Assembly (NCBI GenBank): GCA_019637095.1
Contig: JAHBWG010000088.1
Coordinates: 1 to 38,463, forward strand
Source of the DNA: Sandaracinaceae bacterium
GTDB taxonomy: Bacteria > Myxococcota_A > Polyangia > Polyangiales > Sandaracinaceae
DNA: 38,463 nt
Direction: 5' to 3'
Each line of letters opens with the position of its first letter. The first letter of the stretch is position 1. The position numbers and the translations under genes were made by a program. The notes beneath the pieces were generated by a model. It had not been told where the DNA came from. It worked only from the letters and a program-made list of their open reading frames with translations, and did not search any database. Below are positions 13,722 to 37,975 of this stretch, piece after piece.

Positions 13722-14561
13722 TCAGAACGCGCCGCCGAGCCCGGCGACCGCGCCGCCCTCGACGGGCGAGACGTCGAAGCGCAGGCCCGCTGCGCGCTGC
13801 GGCTCGGCGTCGGGGACCTGGACGGCGAGCCCGACGATCATCACGACGAGCCCCGCGATCTGCGAGAAGCCCATCACCGGGTGGAAGATCCCCGTCCAGC
13901 GCGGGACCGAGTCCCACTGCAGCGTGGGGAGCTGCCCGAACGGACCGCCGAGCGGCACGAACGAGAGCCCGACGTACTGGCCCGCGAGCGAGTCGCCGCG
14001 GTTGAGCGCGAGGCTCGTGGAGAAGTTCGCGACCCACGTGCCGGCGAACACCGCCATGCCGGGGATCGCGAGCTCCCAGAACGGGCGCGTCGAGCGCACG
14101 ACCAGCGGCGGCGTGCTCGCGACGGGCGCCGCCATGCCGTAGGCGGAGGGAGCAGAGGTCGCCGGCGCCGTGACGCCGTAGGCGGGCGGAGGCGCCGCGC
14201 GCGACGCCGCCCCTGCGAGCTGCGCGTCGATCTGCGCGCGCAGCGCGTCGGCGTGGCTCGCGTACTCCGGCCCCGGCCGCTCGCGGTGAAACGAGGGCTC
14301 GTGCGTGAGCTGGTAGCGCGCGCCGTCGTAGCGGATGCGCACGCGCAGCGTACCGGTCGCGAGGCGCGCGACGAGGTCGCCCGGCGCCTCGCCCTCGGGG
14401 ACGAAGCCGCGCGCCGCGAGCCCCTCGAGGATGGCGACGCGCATCGCGCCCGCGTCCATCGGGCGCGGCGCCGTCCCCGTGCGCGCCGCGCCGAGCGCCG
14501 GACCGCGAGCGCAGCCGAGCGCGCCGAGCGCGAGCAGCGCCACGACGACCGCGCGCGTCAC
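13722..14561 (-). CDS. Lipoprotein with two hydrophobic segments
   Basis: Predicted 279-aa lipoprotein. GTG 14561 overlaps the Lgt-like gene's stop as GTGA. The signal peptide ends at lipobox LGAC-like ALGC (Cys17). The mature N-terminal domain (about 35-130) is soluble with RVRIRYDGARYQLTHEPSFH; a Pro/Ala/Tyr linker with repeated P-x-Y-G-V/M-A-P follows, then two hydrophobic stretches (about 165-185 and 235-255) that could be membrane-spanning, unusual for a lipoprotein. No family recognised. Last gene of the envelope run that begins at 18631. Confidence 0.75.
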   Translation of the reverse strand: MTRAVVVALLALGALGCARGPALGAARTGTAPRPMDAGAMRVAILEGLAARGFVPEGEAPGDLVARLATGTLRVRIRYDGARYQLTHEPSFHRERPGPEYASHADALRAQIDAQLAGAASRAAPPPAYGVTAPATSAPSAYGMAAPVASTPPLVVRSTRPFWELAIPGMAVFAGTWVANFSTSLALNRGDSLAGQYVGLSFVPLGGPFGQLPTLQWDSVPRWTGIFHPVMGFSQIAGLVVMIVGLAVQVPDAEPQRAAGLRFDVSPVEGGAVAGLGGAF

Positions 14562-15406
14562 GCCGCCTCCGCGCGCGCGGGTGCGGCGGGCGCGCGCCAC
14601 ACCCGGACGAGGCCGATCCCGGCGATGGCGACGACGATCGCGAGCGAGGTCCACTGCGCGGTGCTCAGGCCGGCGTAGAGCCCGCGCGAGGCGTCCGCGC
14701 GGAACGCCTCGACCAGCGCGCGCCCGATCGCGTAGAGCACGAGCCACACGGCGAACGCGGCGCCCGACGGGAGGCGGCCGCCGCGCGCGGGACGATAGAC
14801 CGCGAGCGCGCCGAGGCTCGCGACGAGCGCGACCGCGCCCTCGTAGAGCTGCGTCGGGTGGGTCGGCAGGCTCGCCATGCCGGCGGGGACGAGGCCCGCG
14901 TGCGCGTGCTCGAGCGCGGCGAGCGAGCCCGCCGGGTAGCGCACGGCGAGCGCGAGCTCGGAGGGGACGCCGTAGTCGCACCCCTCGAGCAGGCAGCCCA
15001 CGCGCACGAGCGCGTAGACCACGCCGAGGAAGAGCGCGATGCGATCGAAGAACGCGCCGACCGGCGCGCGCGAGACGCGCAGGTGCGCCGCGGCGCCGAG
15101 CGCGGCGAAGAGGAGCCCGCCGTACGCCGCGCGCCCGACGTGGAGGTACGGCGCGACGGACCCCGAGAAGAGCGCCTCGGGCGTGACGCGCAGCCACTCG
15201 TAGACGTAGCCGCCCGCGAGCGCGCCGCCGTACGCGATCAAGAGGGTGGTCGCGGTCCGACGTACGTCGCCGCCCTCGCGGCGCGTGAGCCGGAGCACGC
15301 CGGCGGCGGCGAGCAGGGCGGCGATCCCGGCCAACGTGCCGTACCCCGGCACGAGCGCGTCGGGCACGCCGTGCTCGAGCGCCCACGCGACGAGCACCGG
15401 CCTCAC
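14558..15406 (-). CDS. Lgt-like diacylglyceryl transferase paralog
   Basis: Predicted 282-aa multi-pass membrane protein related to prolipoprotein diacylglyceryl transferase, which puts the first lipid on lipoprotein cysteines. Family hallmarks: AAYGGLLFA (GG96-97), VRVGCLLEGCDYG (R135, C138), and HPTQLYE (183-189). Compared with Escherichia coli Lgt, the essential His103 position holds Tyr95 and the Asn146 position holds Cys138, changes that occur in divergent family branches. GTG 15406 has GGAGG five bases upstream and overlaps the upstream gene's TGA. Coupling to the cysteine-rich lipoprotein upstream and a lipoprotein downstream suggests a dedicated modifying enzyme, but it could also be the cell's general Lgt or a non-Lgt lipid transferase. 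Confidence 0.82.
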   Translation of the reverse strand: MRPVLVAWALEHGVPDALVPGYGTLAGIAALLAAAGVLRLTRREGGDVRRTATTLLIAYGGALAGGYVYEWLRVTPEALFSGSVAPYLHVGRAAYGGLLFAALGAAAHLRVSRAPVGAFFDRIALFLGVVYALVRVGCLLEGCDYGVPSELALAVRYPAGSLAALEHAHAGLVPAGMASLPTHPTQLYEGAVALVASLGALAVYRPARGGRLPSGAAFAVWLVLYAIGRALVEAFRADASRGLYAGLSTAQWTSLAIVVAIAGIGLVRVWRAPAAPARAEAA

Positions 15407-16347
15407 CCGCGCCTCCTTCGCCACGCGAGGTACGCGACGGGGACGAGGAGCCAGAGCGGGTCGAGCGGCGCGCCGGCGGGGCGCGCGTGCTCGTGCTCGG
15501 CCGCGGCGCAGTGGACGCCGCGTCCGTCGGGCCCGCACTCGCACGCGCACTCGCCGCAGTCCCAGCCGCAGTAGTTGCAGCGCCAGGTCGTGCAGTCGCA
15601 CGTGCAGCTCTGGTAACAGCCCCAGCCCGTCGAGGTCTCGCGGTGATGGTCGAACGGGCCGGAGGAGCCGATGAGCGGCGACGACGACGCGCCGAGCTCG
15701 CCCGCGCGCGCGTGCTCGTCGAGCTCCGCCTCGAGCACGAGCCACACCGGGTTCACGAACAACCGCTCGCCCCGCGCGGCGAGCGCCGCAGGCATCCGCG
15801 GCGCCAGCCGCACCGTGCGCGCGCCGGTCCGCGCGGCGAGCTGCTCGATCACCTCGCGCGCGCGGCCGCGCAGCCCCGACGCGAGCGGCTCCTGCGCGAA
15901 GGCCGGGTCCTCGAATGCCAGCGCGGGCGCCGCCTCGGGGACGGCGCCGTCGGCGTCCATCATCGCGAGCGTGAGGAGCTGCGCGTCGAGCCCGACCGGC
16001 TCGATCGCGAGCGCGACGAGCGCGTCGGCGCCGCGCTGCGCGCGGCCGAGGTCGTGCGCCTCGACGAGGTCGGGCGCGTCGATCGCCTCCGCGGCCTCCG
16101 CGGCCTCCGCGGCCGCGAGGAGGCCGCGCTCGCGCTGCGTGCGCACGGCGGCGTCGAACCGCGTCGCGAGCGCCATGCGTCGCTCGAGCGGCAGCGCGAG
16201 GATCTCCTCCGGCGAGGACGAGAGCGCCTCGCGCAGCGGCGCCCCGCCCTCGGAGCTCACGCCCGGCGGCTCCGCGCAGGCCGCGGCGAGCAGCGCCGCG
16301 AGCCCCGCGACGCGCAGGGAGTGCCCGCCCTTCACCATCGACGCCAT
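15403..16347 (-). CDS. Cysteine-rich lipoprotein with C-terminal anchor
   Basis: Predicted 314-aa lipoprotein. Signal peptide ends at lipobox AAAC (Cys24). The middle (residues 45-230) is helical with AAEAAEAAEA and no known domain. Residues about 245-281 contain eleven cysteines in 37 residues, several as CxC or CxxC pairs, followed by a His/Glu patch, a hydrophobic segment (PLDPLWLLVPVAYLAW) and a final RRRRG. That tail resembles rhombosortase/MYXO-CTERM-type sorting signals. ATG 16347 is the first start; ATG 16338 is an alternative. The stop is coupled by GTGA to the Lgt-like gene. The Cys cluster could be disulfide-bonded or bind metal. Confidence 0.78.
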   Translation of the reverse strand: MASMVKGGHSLRVAGLAALLAAACAEPPGVSSEGGAPLREALSSSPEEILALPLERRMALATRFDAAVRTQRERGLLAAAEAAEAAEAIDAPDLVEAHDLGRAQRGADALVALAIEPVGLDAQLLTLAMMDADGAVPEAAPALAFEDPAFAQEPLASGLRGRAREVIEQLAARTGARTVRLAPRMPAALAARGERLFVNPVWLVLEAELDEHARAGELGASSSPLIGSSGPFDHHRETSTGWGCYQSCTCDCTTWRCNYCGWDCGECACECGPDGRGVHCAAAEHEHARPAGAPLDPLWLLVPVAYLAWRRRRG

Positions 16348-16841: not shown

Positions 16842-18023
16842 TCAGCGCCGCCGGCGGAGCGCGACGAAGGCGAGCACGAGCGCGCCGAGCGGGGCGCCAG
16901 GCGCGCGCGCGCCGATCGTGCGGCAGGTGCAGGTGCCGTCGAGCGAGCTGCCCCCGCGCCCCGCGTCGAGGCCCGGCGCGACGGCGCCGTCCAGCGGCGG
17001 GAGCGCGGCGTCGAGCGCGGACGCGCCGCCGTCCTCGCTCGCGCCGCCATCGAGCGCGGGGACCCCCGCGTCGAGCGGCGCACACGGCAGATCGGCGCCG
17101 TCGCAGTCCTGATCGATCCCGTCGCCGCAGACCTCCGGGTTGCCGGGGAAGCGCCCGGGGTCGGCGTCGTCGCAGTCTTCGTCGGCCGGGCTCCCGTCCC
17201 CGTCCGCGTCCGGCGGCGGCGCGCACACGTCGTCGGTGCCGACCGGCATCGACACGCAGCCCCAGCGGCACGGCTCGGTCATGTCGTTGCCGTCGATGCA
17301 GCGCCGCCGGCTCGTGCGCCCCGCGTCGCACGTCCAGATCGGGTAGGTGCCGGACGGGCACGTCGCGGTCCCGTCGCACGTCGGCGCGGGCATGGACCGG
17401 TGCCCGCCCTGCGCCGTCCAGCGCGAGGGCGAGGTCGGCGAGCAGCCGCCTGCGAACGGATCGAACGCCGTCGTGTACGCGCCGCCGAGGGGCCGCGTCT
17501 CGAAGTGCAGGTGCGCGCCCGTCGAGCAGCCGCTCGAGCCGATCTGCCCGATCGCGTCGCCGCAGCGCACCGTGTCGCCCGGCCGCACGCGCACGCTCCC
17601 CTGCCGCAGGTGCGCGTAGATCGTGCGGTAGCTGCCGTGGTTGATCACGACGTGGTTGCCGTACCCCGAGCCGAACCCCGTCCCGCAGCGCGCGTCGACC
17701 GACGCGTTGCACGTGCGGCAGCGATCGTAGTGGCCGTCCTCGGTCGAGACGACCATCCCGTCGGCCGCGGCGACCACGTCGTGGCCCGCGGGGATCGCGT
17801 CGACGTTGCCGGCGAGGCTGAAGTCGGAGCCGCGGTGCCCGTCGTAGGTGGACATCGCGCAGTTCCAGTCGCGCAGCCCCGCGCCGGCGAGGTTGTCGAA
17901 GTAGTACCAGTTCGCGATGCACGCGTCGCACGCCACGGGGCGCCGGAAGGTCTGCGCGTGCGCGGAGGCGCCGTGCCCCGCCACGATCCCGAGCGCGATC
18001 CCGATCGCGAGCGCGAGCCTCAC
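16842..18023 (-). CDS. M23 peptidase with MopE repeat, MYXO-CTERM-like tail
   Basis: Predicted 393-aa secreted LytM/M23 endopeptidase, which cuts peptidoglycan cross-bridges. Signal peptide ends near HAQ (residue 24). Zinc ligands and catalytic residues: H63 and D67 in HRGSDF, H138 in YAHL, and H171/H173 in GAHLHFE. After the peptidase comes a Cys-rich region, then DADGDGSPADEDCDDADPG...DGIDQDCDG, a MopE-type metal-binding motif, an Ala/Asp/Gly linker, and a C-terminal CTCR, hydrophobic stretch and RRRR resembling MYXO-CTERM. GTG 18023 overlaps the upstream lipoprotein stop as GTGA. The tail implies surface anchoring, odd for a wall hydrolase and suggesting action on other cells or at the outer surface. 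Confidence 0.88.
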   Translation of the reverse strand: MRLALAIGIALGIVAGHGASAHAQTFRRPVACDACIANWYYFDNLAGAGLRDWNCAMSTYDGHRGSDFSLAGNVDAIPAGHDVVAAADGMVVSTEDGHYDRCRTCNASVDARCGTGFGSGYGNHVVINHGSYRTIYAHLRQGSVRVRPGDTVRCGDAIGQIGSSGCSTGAHLHFETRPLGGAYTTAFDPFAGGCSPTSPSRWTAQGGHRSMPAPTCDGTATCPSGTYPIWTCDAGRTSRRRCIDGNDMTEPCRWGCVSMPVGTDDVCAPPPDADGDGSPADEDCDDADPGRFPGNPEVCGDGIDQDCDGADLPCAPLDAGVPALDGGASEDGGASALDAALPPLDGAVAPGLDAGRGGSSLDGTCTCRTIGARAPGAPLGALVLAFVALRRRR

Positions 18024-35624: not shown

Positions 35625-37070
35625 TCAGCAGTCGTCGTCCAGCTCGATCGTCACCCCGCTGCCGGTGACGATCCGGCTGTGCGTGGCGTTCGGGCCGACG
35701 ACCGGGCTCGCCGTCTCGGCGTTCGGCACCGCGCCGACGATCACCGGGCGGTCCGGGTCCCCGTTGACGAAGCCGATCACGCACTCCGTCCCGATGTGCA
35801 GCGGCAGGTGCATGCCGTAGCCGCTGCCCGCCGAGGGCTGCGCGCGCCGCACCCAGCGCGACGCCTTGCCGCCGCCGACCCCCGTCTCGTCGCCCGGGAT
35901 CACGACCTTGTAGCGCCCCTCCGGATCGATCGGGGTCATCGTGCTGCGCGCCTCGCCGTCGATCTTCGCGTTGATCAGCCCGTCGATGCGCGGCCACGCC
36001 GCGCGGCGCTGCGGCCGGAACGGCACGCGCGCGGGGATCGCCTCGATCGTCTTGACGAAGCGGCCCTCGCCGTCCTTGCCCAGGCCCTGCGCGATCCCGG
36101 TGACCACGTACTCCTGGTCGAGATCCGGGTTCGGGTGGCCCGTCAGCTCGAAGCGCGCGCCGGGGAAGAGGAAGCGCGAGCCCGTCTCCATCACGAACGT
36201 GTCGTGCGTGACCATCATCTGCTCGGCGCGGATGCGCGCGACCTCGTCGCCCTCCCCCGCGTCCGCGAAGTGGTCGCCGAACAGATCGATGAGCCCGTGC
36301 CCCGTCGCCTCGTCCACCGCGTGCTCGCAGCGGAGCGGCGTCGTCGGCGTGCGCCAGTTGTACTCGCGGACCTGTACCGTCGCGGGCCGGATGCGGCGGA
36401 AGCGGCGCAGGCTCGAGACGCTCCGCGTGTCGTCGCCGCTCGCCGAGGTCGGCGCGTAGTGCAGCGTCTCGTGGTCCGCGACCGGCTCGAAGGCGCCGTT
36501 GTCGTCGCCGAGCACGATCAGCTCGCCCTCCGGGCGCATCTGGAAGTGGAAGTGGATGCCGTAGTGCTCCATCAGGCGGCTGATGAAGGCGTAGTCCGTC
36601 TCCTCGTGCTGCACCGTGTACTCGACCGCCTCGTACGAGCCGTTGCACGCGTCGTCGACGTGCGAGCCGGCGGCGAGGCCGTGCTCGTCGAGCACCGCCT
36701 TGACGATGTCGAGGTAGGACATGTCCTGCCACACGCGGTTGCGCCGCGTCAGCGTGAGGAAGTACAGCTTGGGGACGATGCGCAGCCGGTAGAGCGCCTG
36801 CCCCGCGGTGCGCATGCTGAGCATCTCGAGCTCGCGCACGATCCCGTGCACGTCGTGCTCGCTCGACTCGCCGAAGCCGACGCGCACCGGGTTGGTGAGC
36901 AGGCTGTCGATCGCGTCGTCGCTCAGCCCTCCGTCCCCGAGCACCTCGAGATCGACCTCGTACTCGTAGAGGTCCGAGATCCATTGGCGCCCGTGCCCGG
37001 AGCGACCGACGATCTGCGCGTCCCCGATCTCCGCGTTGCCATGATCGAACACGATGTAGCGACCGCTCAT
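35625..37070 (-). CDS. Short VgrG, type VI secretion spike hub
   Basis: 481-aa VgrG-family protein. The gp27-like hub (about 20-330) has LYRLRIVPKLYFLTLTRRNR, ETDYAFISRLMEHYGIHFHF and GFARFELTGHPN-like phrases; the gp5-like OB fold (about 370-455) has KVVIPGDETGVGGGKASRWVRRAQP and HIGTECVIGFVNGDPDRPVIVG. The protein stops at VTIELDDDC just after the OB fold, so the usual triple-helical needle is absent. ATG 37070 has GGGAG upstream. It forms part of the injected spike of type VI secretion. The needle may be supplied by the DUF3540-like protein encoded before it. Confidence 0.92.
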   Translation of the reverse strand: MSGRYIVFDHGNAEIGDAQIVGRSGHGRQWISDLYEYEVDLEVLGDGGLSDDAIDSLLTNPVRVGFGESSEHDVHGIVRELEMLSMRTAGQALYRLRIVPKLYFLTLTRRNRVWQDMSYLDIVKAVLDEHGLAAGSHVDDACNGSYEAVEYTVQHEETDYAFISRLMEHYGIHFHFQMRPEGELIVLGDDNGAFEPVADHETLHYAPTSASGDDTRSVSSLRRFRRIRPATVQVREYNWRTPTTPLRCEHAVDEATGHGLIDLFGDHFADAGEGDEVARIRAEQMMVTHDTFVMETGSRFLFPGARFELTGHPNPDLDQEYVVTGIAQGLGKDGEGRFVKTIEAIPARVPFRPQRRAAWPRIDGLINAKIDGEARSTMTPIDPEGRYKVVIPGDETGVGGGKASRWVRRAQPSAGSGYGMHLPLHIGTECVIGFVNGDPDRPVIVGAVPNAETASPVVGPNATHSRIVTGSGVTIELDDDC

Positions 37071-37120
37071 CCCACGTCTCCCGGTTCGCGCGCCAGAGGC
37101 GAGCGCGCGCGAGGTGTGCC

Positions 37121-37975
37121 TCAGTCGAGGTAGATCGTCTCGCCCTTGAGCTTCATGTCCTGCCGCGCCTTGAAGAGCGTGCGCTCCCCGAGGATGCGGA
37201 ACGTCTCCTCGGCGACCATGCGCACGCGCCCCGCGCGCGTCTGCGCGAGGCCCTCGACGTCGCGGTAGCTCTCGCCGAGCCGCTCGACGAGCTGCGTCGC
37301 CTCCACGCTCACGCGCCGCGCGACGGTGCGCACCACGTCGGAGGCGAGCTCGAGCGTGTCCGCGCTGAGCTTGGCGTCGCCCTCGACCTCGGTCACCGCG
37401 CGGCCGAGCTTCGCGCGCAGCTCCTCGACCACGAGCTGCACGCCGCGGCGCGCGAGCGAGAGGTGCGCGCCGCCCTCGACCTCGAGCTGCACCGAGCGCG
37501 CCGAGCGCACCTCGACGCCCTCGGCTCCCTCGATGCGCACGCGCTTGGCCGCGCTGAGCATGAGGTCGCCGGCCTCTGCGCGCAGCTCGAGCGCGCCGCG
37601 CGGCGCGACGACACGGCTCTTGCCGTCGCGATGCTCGAACAGCACGGTGCCGTCCGCCGCCTCGACGGTGAGCGTCTCGCCGCCCTCGTCCGAGAGCCGC
37701 ACGCGCGTGCCGTCGGAGGTCTGGGCGAGCACCTCGACCTCGCGCAGGCGCCGCAGCACGCCGATCACGTAGCGGGCGCCGTCGCCGCCGTCCGCGACGA
37801 GGACCTCGTCGCCGACGCGCGGCCGCTCGGCGATCGCGAGGCGCGCCCCGACCACGCCTCCGTCGAGCGCGAGCTCGAGCTCCGCGCCGCGCCCCCCCAC
37901 GACCTCGGCAGGCCGAAACGGGGCGGGCGAGGGGATGGACGCGAGGCGGGGAGCGTTCGAGGTGCGGCGTGACAC
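37121..37975 (-). CDS. DUF3540-like beta-helical spike-associated protein
   Basis: 284-aa protein. N-terminal linker, then an OB-like domain (about 30-95) and a long run of short beta strands (about 100-284) with repeating Val/Arg/Ala/Glu patterns such as LELRAEAGDLMLSAAKRVRIEG and VQLEVEGGAHLSLA, ending MKLKGETIYLD. This fits the DUF3540 family, known next to type VI genes, and the C-terminal needle of VgrG. GTG 37975 is the start; no strong ribosome site is visible. Located 50 nt upstream of the short VgrG on the same strand, so they are probably made together. Identification rests on composition and context. Confidence 0.75.
   Translation of the reverse strand: MSRRTSNAPRLASIPSPAPFRPAEVVGGRGAELELALDGGVVGARLAIAERPRVGDEVLVADGGDGARYVIGVLRRLREVEVLAQTSDGTRVRLSDEGGETLTVEAADGTVLFEHRDGKSRVVAPRGALELRAEAGDLMLSAAKRVRIEGAEGVEVRSARSVQLEVEGGAHLSLARRGVQLVVEELRAKLGRAVTEVEGDAKLSADTLELASDVVRTVARRVSVEATQLVERLGESYRDVEGLAQTRAGRVRMVAEETFRILGERTLFKARQDMKLKGETIYLD

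Follow-up and report, generated by a model that had tools for sequence, protein, structure and literature searches.

An Lgt-family clade linked to a single cysteine-rich, tail-anchored partner: a candidate pair for lipidation near the C terminus

An Lgt-family paralog encoded in the genome of a Sandaracinaceae bacterium belongs to one clade that is linked to a single Cys-rich, tailed protein and that keeps the Arg network of Lgt. The gene pair was analyzed in a window of 38,463 nucleotides, this being the whole stretch of DNA under study (contig JAHBWG010000088.1). From these sequences we propose, as an evenly balanced judgment, that the pair forms a dedicated one-enzyme, one-substrate module in which the paralog would lipidate cysteines near the tail of its partner by a putative chemistry. 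The features of the pair and of the gene next to it are as follows.

13722-14561, minus strand: lipoprotein-like gene downstream of the Lgt gene, overlapping its stop by 4 bases (ATGA)
14558-15406, minus strand: Lgt-family paralog (PF01790), 282 residues, GTG start
15403-15406, minus strand: GTGA, a 4-base overlap of the lipoprotein stop and the Lgt start, read from the sequence
15403-16338, minus strand: Cys-rich tail-anchored lipoprotein, 311 residues from the second ATG (the first ATG, at 16347, gives 314 residues)
15409-15456, minus strand: predicted tail helix with Pro, and Arg residues at its end (predicted helix residues 295-310; tail profile)
15508-15618, minus strand: Cys-rich segment, 11 Cys in 37 residues by count
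15688-16251, minus strand: N-domain (PLREAL... VNPVWLV)
16276-16278, minus strand: codon of the lipobox Cys (LAAAC), which is Cys in all 11 rows of the lipoprotein alignment

The gene pair and its conservation

The lipoprotein consists of a signal peptide with a lipobox, an N-domain, the Cys-rich segment and a tail helix, and its tail reads LDPLWLLVPVAYLAWRRRRG. Its twelfth Cys is that of the lipobox. The binomial probability of eleven Cys in 37 residues is 7e-14 for a Cys content of 1% and 5e-12 for 1.5%. The model of the N-domain (residues 35 to 217) is of fair to good confidence, with pLDDT mostly 80 to 97; this domain has no match in Pfam or NCBIfam, and the fold search gave no PDB match to the lipoprotein or its N-domain at E ≤ 0.001. 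The enzyme carries the motifs GRAAYGGL and VRVGCLLEGCDYG and is without a C-terminal barrel extension. It is a member of the Lgt family by its match to PF01790 (E = 8.5e-28; 97.7 bits, with a gathering score of 24.9) and lies below the cutoffs of the NCBIfam equivalogs TIGR00544 (36.4 versus 118.9) and NF000778 (81.4 versus 334). An earlier note, made from the letters of the window, had described a lipoprotein with eleven Cys in 37 residues, a GTGA overlap with the next gene, and an Lgt-like enzyme lacking the usual His and Asn; all three descriptions were confirmed (nucleotides 15618-15508; positions 15403-15406; Tyr95 and Cys138 by comparison with 5azb). The gene at 13722-14561 had no counterpart in the relatives that were read and is, on the sequence, probably not part of the module.

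The lipoprotein was searched for in 183 genomes of the order. Seventeen matched, including that of the window. Of the remaining 16, 15 proved to be true relatives, and in every one of them the lipoprotein is followed by the Lgt paralog; the last match (L032) was rejected as a chance similarity to a large transporter. A profile of the paralog found it in 20 of the 183 genomes at E ≤ 1e-60, in one copy each, and a scan of named genomes gave 35 loci, of which 13 belong to this clade, including Sorangium cellulosum, Polyangium and Labilithrix records. The 21 clade loci of this first set all show the 4-base overlap [AG]TGA, and each of their upstream proteins carries a lipobox Cys (read by eye in four) and a tail helix with Arg or Lys at its end. 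With a wider profile that includes distant members, 33 of 317 genomes of the class carry the clade at 223.9 bits or more, the lowest member scoring 223.9 and the next score, 215.2, belonging to another Lgt type.

Two of these neighborhoods (G257 and G568) are not visible, because the contig ends or a stretch of N falls at the place of the partner. In all 31 visible neighborhoods, an adjoining gene encodes a protein with a Cys-rich segment and a membrane tail that contains Pro and ends in Arg. The partner lies upstream with a 4-base overlap in 27 of them (the 21 of the first set and six further loci) and downstream in four (G049, G126, G154 and G155), three of which have the 4-base overlap. An automatic rule for a Cys-rich segment with a tail flagged, at its final setting, 26 of the 31 clade loci and 3 of 80 other Lgt rows; stepwise loosening of its settings had given 23, 24 and 26 of the clade loci and 2, 3 and 3 of the controls. 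The three control flags, at L115 (two rows) and L136, are all tandem Lgt genes in two loci. The rule missed L106, L180, L189, L214 and L216, where the partner was found by eye in every case (for L189 through L179 of the same genome); the domain start had been set too early in the last four, and the miss at L106 (G049) is ascribed to a charged residue in the tail. Across 377 genomes of the phylum, the N-domain profile and a paralog score above 390 bits pointed to the same seven genomes, with a Fisher probability of 5e-15 that is indicative, since relatedness makes the genomes non-independent and the scoring covered just a few candidates in each. In three further genomes of this search (G197, G204 and G222) the paralog scores 204 to 209 bits, and the partner was missed by the N-domain profile.

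Residues of the paralog and the other Lgt genes

The paralog aligns with E. coli Lgt (PF01790; structures 5azb and 5azc) over most of the chain, and the clade profile matches 5azb with E = 3.8e-14. In this alignment the signature RLGNFINGELWG falls on RVGCLLEGCDYG of the window protein, and the His of HGGL is replaced by Tyr. The window protein has Tyr95 for His103, Cys138 for Asn146 and Cys143 for Glu151, and it keeps the equivalents of Arg143, Gly154, Tyr235, Arg239, Glu243 and Arg246 (R135, R229, E233 and R236 being those of Arg143, Arg239, Glu243 and Arg246), so that the Arg/Glu/Tyr/Gly network is retained. The profile alignment gives the same changes as those first reported for His and Asn, which do not realign otherwise. 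These six equivalents are invariant in the clade alignment A7, and the accessible text of PMC4728403 and PMC13251419 names them as Arg-network residues central for E. coli Lgt. Conservation in the clade is incomplete at Glu202, which is Leu in G049, and at Tyr26, which is Trp in three loci, and the equivalents of His103, Asn146 and Glu151 are changed in every member of alignments A2 and A7. The paralog differs from Lgt in these three positions, in having one linked partner and, in many members, in a fusion to a barrel-like domain.

According to the same accessible texts, E. coli Lgt altered at His103 or Asn146 does not complement (PMC4728403, PMC13251419). Natural variants have Y, W or F at His103 in some species, and distant Lgts have C at Asn146 and C or D at Glu151 (PMC13251419, 2026). 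Mycobacterium smegmatis MSMEG_5408 and Leptospira interrogans Lgt resemble the paralog in having Cys for Asn146, and differ from it in that a dedicated Cys-rich partner is not described in the part of the source available (PMC13251419). In E. coli, the L. interrogans protein restored morphology and restored viability poorly (PMC13251419, accessible text).

The genome of the window (9.25 Mb in 197 contigs) has seven PF01790 genes, from eight matching rows of which two are one gene on C90, and the paralog is therefore not its sole Lgt. His and Asn are both present in one of them, on C111, and the other six lack both. PF01790 was matched in 112 of 114 genomes of the class that were searched, mostly several times per genome. 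Eight genomes (G210, G231, G242, G244, G252, G255, G260 and G261) have a single detected Lgt, and in all eight Cys replaces the Asn of this protein, while its His is replaced by Tyr, Trp, Phe or Thr; the listed completeness of these genomes is 90 to 98%, so that some of them may have a further copy that escaped detection. An LspA match is present in seven of the eight and absent in G252. Since genomes with a sole detected Lgt and published natural variants share these states, the loss of His and Asn was discarded as the mark of a changed enzyme and is no argument for a new activity. The dedicated lipid-transfer pair suggested in the earlier note, which might act on the internal cysteines, holds well as a genetic linkage, seen in both gene orders and with four partners that have no lipobox, and loses the part of its case that was built on the missing residues.

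In a tree of 102 Lgt sequences, the 21 paralogs then known form one group with an SH-aLRT of 99. Cys-type Lgts lie on one side of this clade, and the His/Asn type and the single-copy type lie on the other; the tree comes from a quick search and has several long branches outside the paralog clade.

The changed residues could also mean that the paralog has lost or altered its catalysis and acts in the membrane as a partner or receptor, holding the tail protein without lipidating it and, where fused, bringing a barrel. The replacement of His103, Asn146 and Glu151 throughout A2 and A7 and the variation at Glu202 and Tyr26 would fit such a role. We consider it unlikely, given that the network of Arg143, Arg239, Glu243 and Arg246 is invariant in A7, that the sole detected Lgt of eight genomes, seven of them with LspA, also lacks His and Asn, and that L. 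interrogans Lgt with its Cys at Asn146 has the partial effect in E. coli cited above.

Other Lgt genes were observed in varied settings. On C110 of the same genome (L011:7463-10287), a gap of 117 bases separates an Lgt with an HDHPG motif, whose type is elsewhere single-copy, from an amidase-like lipoprotein that has Cys-rich C-terminal repeats, no tail helix and no overlap with the Lgt gene. On C90 (L012:7500-14202), a GCCYG-type Lgt and an LspA-like gene overlap; an isoleucyl-tRNA synthetase-like gene (by eye) is nearby, and there is a second LspA match just upstream. Some genomes of the class have two tandem Cys-type Lgt genes (L115, L135 and L136).

Cysteines, lipobox and tail of the partner

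The number and spacing of the Cys vary widely among the partners, and between 9 and 48 residues separate the last Cys from the tail helix in 21 loci, which is a poor fit to one membrane-proximal acceptor site. This variable spacing to the membrane, together with the Cys-x2-Cys and Cys-x3-Cys repeats of many members, is what would be expected if the segment bound metal or were disulfide bonded and the paralog acted on another Cys or on another substrate in the complex. That explanation leaves unaccounted for the presence of an Lgt fold as the linked partner in all 31 visible cases, and we regard it as improbable.

A lipobox was recognized by eye in 26 of the 27 partners of the upstream type, that of G222 in a neighboring frame, and a standard lipobox is not clear in the partner of G559. 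The four downstream partners (G049, G126, G154 and G155) have no lipobox Cys. They are proteins of approximately 180 to 220 residues with an N-terminal membrane helix, a linker rich in Gly, Pro and Gln, and 8 to 12 Cys; in one example the tail is SSALWLLAPIAVLVAWRRRALR, and no Cys lies near the N terminus. Because of these four, it is the Cys-rich segment with the tail, and not the lipobox, that is common to all visible partners, and it is chiefly on this ground that we place the paralog's action at the tail region. The known reaction of Lgt is N-terminal lipidation, and the paralog might be reserved for this reaction at the lipobox of its partner, possibly drawing on a different lipid donor, with the presence of the Cys-rich tail being incidental. 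The high frequency of the lipobox among upstream partners favors this reading. It is made quite doubtful by the downstream partners, which keep the Cys-rich segment and the tail without a lipobox Cys, by the unclear lipobox of G559, and by the other Lgt-family copies counted in carrier genomes (G000, G147, G149 and G164). Chance adjacency or operon hitchhiking, for which one could cite the short intergenic spacing common in the window, is contradicted by 31 of 31 visible neighborhoods in both gene orders and by a rule that flagged only tandem Lgt genes, in 3 of 80 other Lgt rows, and it may be practically dismissed.

A profile of 11 tails was used to search eight carrier genomes. It gave a clear match (E of 8e-10 or better) in six, always to the pair, and no other match under 0.02 in those six. 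In the other two it was weak, with E = 0.004 for the pair of G147 and E = 0.32 for that of G123, the latter no better than background. The MYXO-CTERM model gave 36 to 106 matches (E ≤ 1) in each of the same eight genomes. Set beside these 36 to 106 matches, the tail of the pair is, by sequence, a separate signal and, in the six genomes with a clear match, apparently one with a single user.

The tail had been called MYXO-CTERM-like, which holds in outline: it shares with the MYXO-CTERM/myxosortase MrtX system (TIGR03901; PMC11980579, as far as its text is accessible) a C-terminal region containing Cys, a membrane helix and an Arg cluster. It differs in a conserved Pro and in scoring below the TIGR03901 cutoff, which gave no match to the window lipoprotein and a subthreshold one (E = 0.039) for one of 11 family members. 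The TIGR03901 scan and the tail profile, with no more than a single clear match in any genome, speak against an ordinary MYXO-CTERM tail, and that reading was rejected. Elsewhere in the window, the protein at 541-2991 combines Cys-rich acidic repeats (myxo_disulf_rpt) with a MYXO-CTERM tail scoring above the TIGR03901 cutoff (22.4 versus 20 bits). TIGR03901 gives no hit for the MYXO-CTERM-like tail of an M23-type peptidase at 16842-18023; the model therefore misses some members.

An Lgt-like enzyme has been proposed as the acyltransferase for the MYXO-CTERM Cys and is stated, in the accessible text of PMC11980579, to be still unidentified. The paralog was rejected as a general enzyme of this kind, since its clade is found in only 33 of 317 genomes of the class, whereas MYXO-CTERM matches were found in 11 of 11 genomes searched; moreover, G210 and G260 have 57 and 15 MYXO-CTERM matches (E ≤ 1) and a single detected Lgt of another type. 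The paralog is too rare for that general role; proof that it acts on its tail would make it a direct precedent. A comparable arrangement is that of MrtJ and JDVT-CTERM, in which one sorting enzyme adjoins a single target with a C-terminal signal; MrtJ is a CPBP-family protease, in contrast to the Lgt-family enzyme of the present pair (PMC11980579, accessible text).

Barrel fusions and the proposed module

In 20 of the 33 clade members, the paralog is fused to a C-terminal domain (16 of the 19 complete paralogs of the first set, and G257, G259, G559 and G568, with the fusions of G257 and G568 seen only in part). The Lgt domain is followed by a basic, hydrophobic, signal-peptide-like segment with AxA before Gln or Glu and then by the C-terminal domain, which is preceded in most fusions by a linker rich in Pro or Gln. 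The window protein and ten other members are without the fusion, and G123 and G167 run off the contig. In the AlphaFold2 model of the L075 fusion, a beta domain at residues 423-568 has pLDDT mostly near 90, and it is most similar in the PDB to NspA, OmpA, Ail and OmpX (NspA 1p4t with E = 4e-5 and a target-length TM score of 0.67); for the Lgt part, the fold search gave 5azb with E = 6.8e-6. No homolog of the barrel was seen in the window, in L071 or L076, or in the other Lgt loci of the same genome. If the predicted AxA site is cut, the fusion would be a polyprotein of an inner membrane enzyme and an outer membrane barrel. FbcH of Bradyrhizobium offers a precedent, being a bacterial polyprotein in which an internal signal peptide separates a membrane protein from an exported domain, and the Lgt-barrel fusion shows the same order, with a predicted cleavage. 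In three fusions (L104, L105 and L046, from G146, G147 and G145), a further small domain (ADAIVLDTGERLTGVITE...) follows the signal-like segment and precedes the barrel.

In the lipidation module proposed here, the tail helix would dock the partner in the inner membrane beside the Lgt paralog, which would move diacylglyceryl from a phospholipid to one or more Cys of the segment. Relative to a lipobox, this geometry would be inverted, the membrane helix coming after the Cys and not before it. The housekeeping Lgt and LspA may also treat the N-terminal lipobox of most members, which would then carry lipid at both ends. The small outer membrane barrel-like domain, encoded behind a predicted signal peptidase site in the fused enzyme genes, suggests, speculatively, that the modified protein is destined for the outer membrane or the cell surface. 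The variable Cys spacing, the variation at Glu202 and Tyr26, the failure of E. coli Lgt altered at His103 or Asn146 to complement, and the weak tail matches in G147 and G123 weigh against the module.

In its full form, the proposal describes a post-translational system in which an Lgt paralog diacylglycerylates internal or C-terminal Cys residues beside a C-terminal membrane tail, free of a lipobox, on one dedicated substrate and mostly as a polyprotein with its own barrel. This broader reading of the sequences we offer tentatively, leaning somewhat toward doubt. If it is true, the N-terminal lipoprotein pathway would have a dedicated counterpart at the C terminus, and the system would serve as a model for the enzyme that lipidates the MYXO-CTERM Cys. 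The natural partners without a lipobox remove confusion with normal lipoprotein processing, and the pair is small enough to be studied in isolation. Extra Lgt copies are numerous in these genomes, and the pair points to a use for at least one of them. The literature searched, with most subscription journals outside its scope, yielded no paper on such a pairing of an Lgt with a Cys-rich tail.

At L046 (positions 1726-2031; G145), a CPBP-like protease open reading frame (EELVWRG, by eye) lies approximately 3 kb upstream of the pair lipoprotein and is, on its sequence, a possible candidate for a tail protease. At the end of the window, a VgrG-like gene (35625-37900) stands beside another secretion-type gene, as judged by eye.
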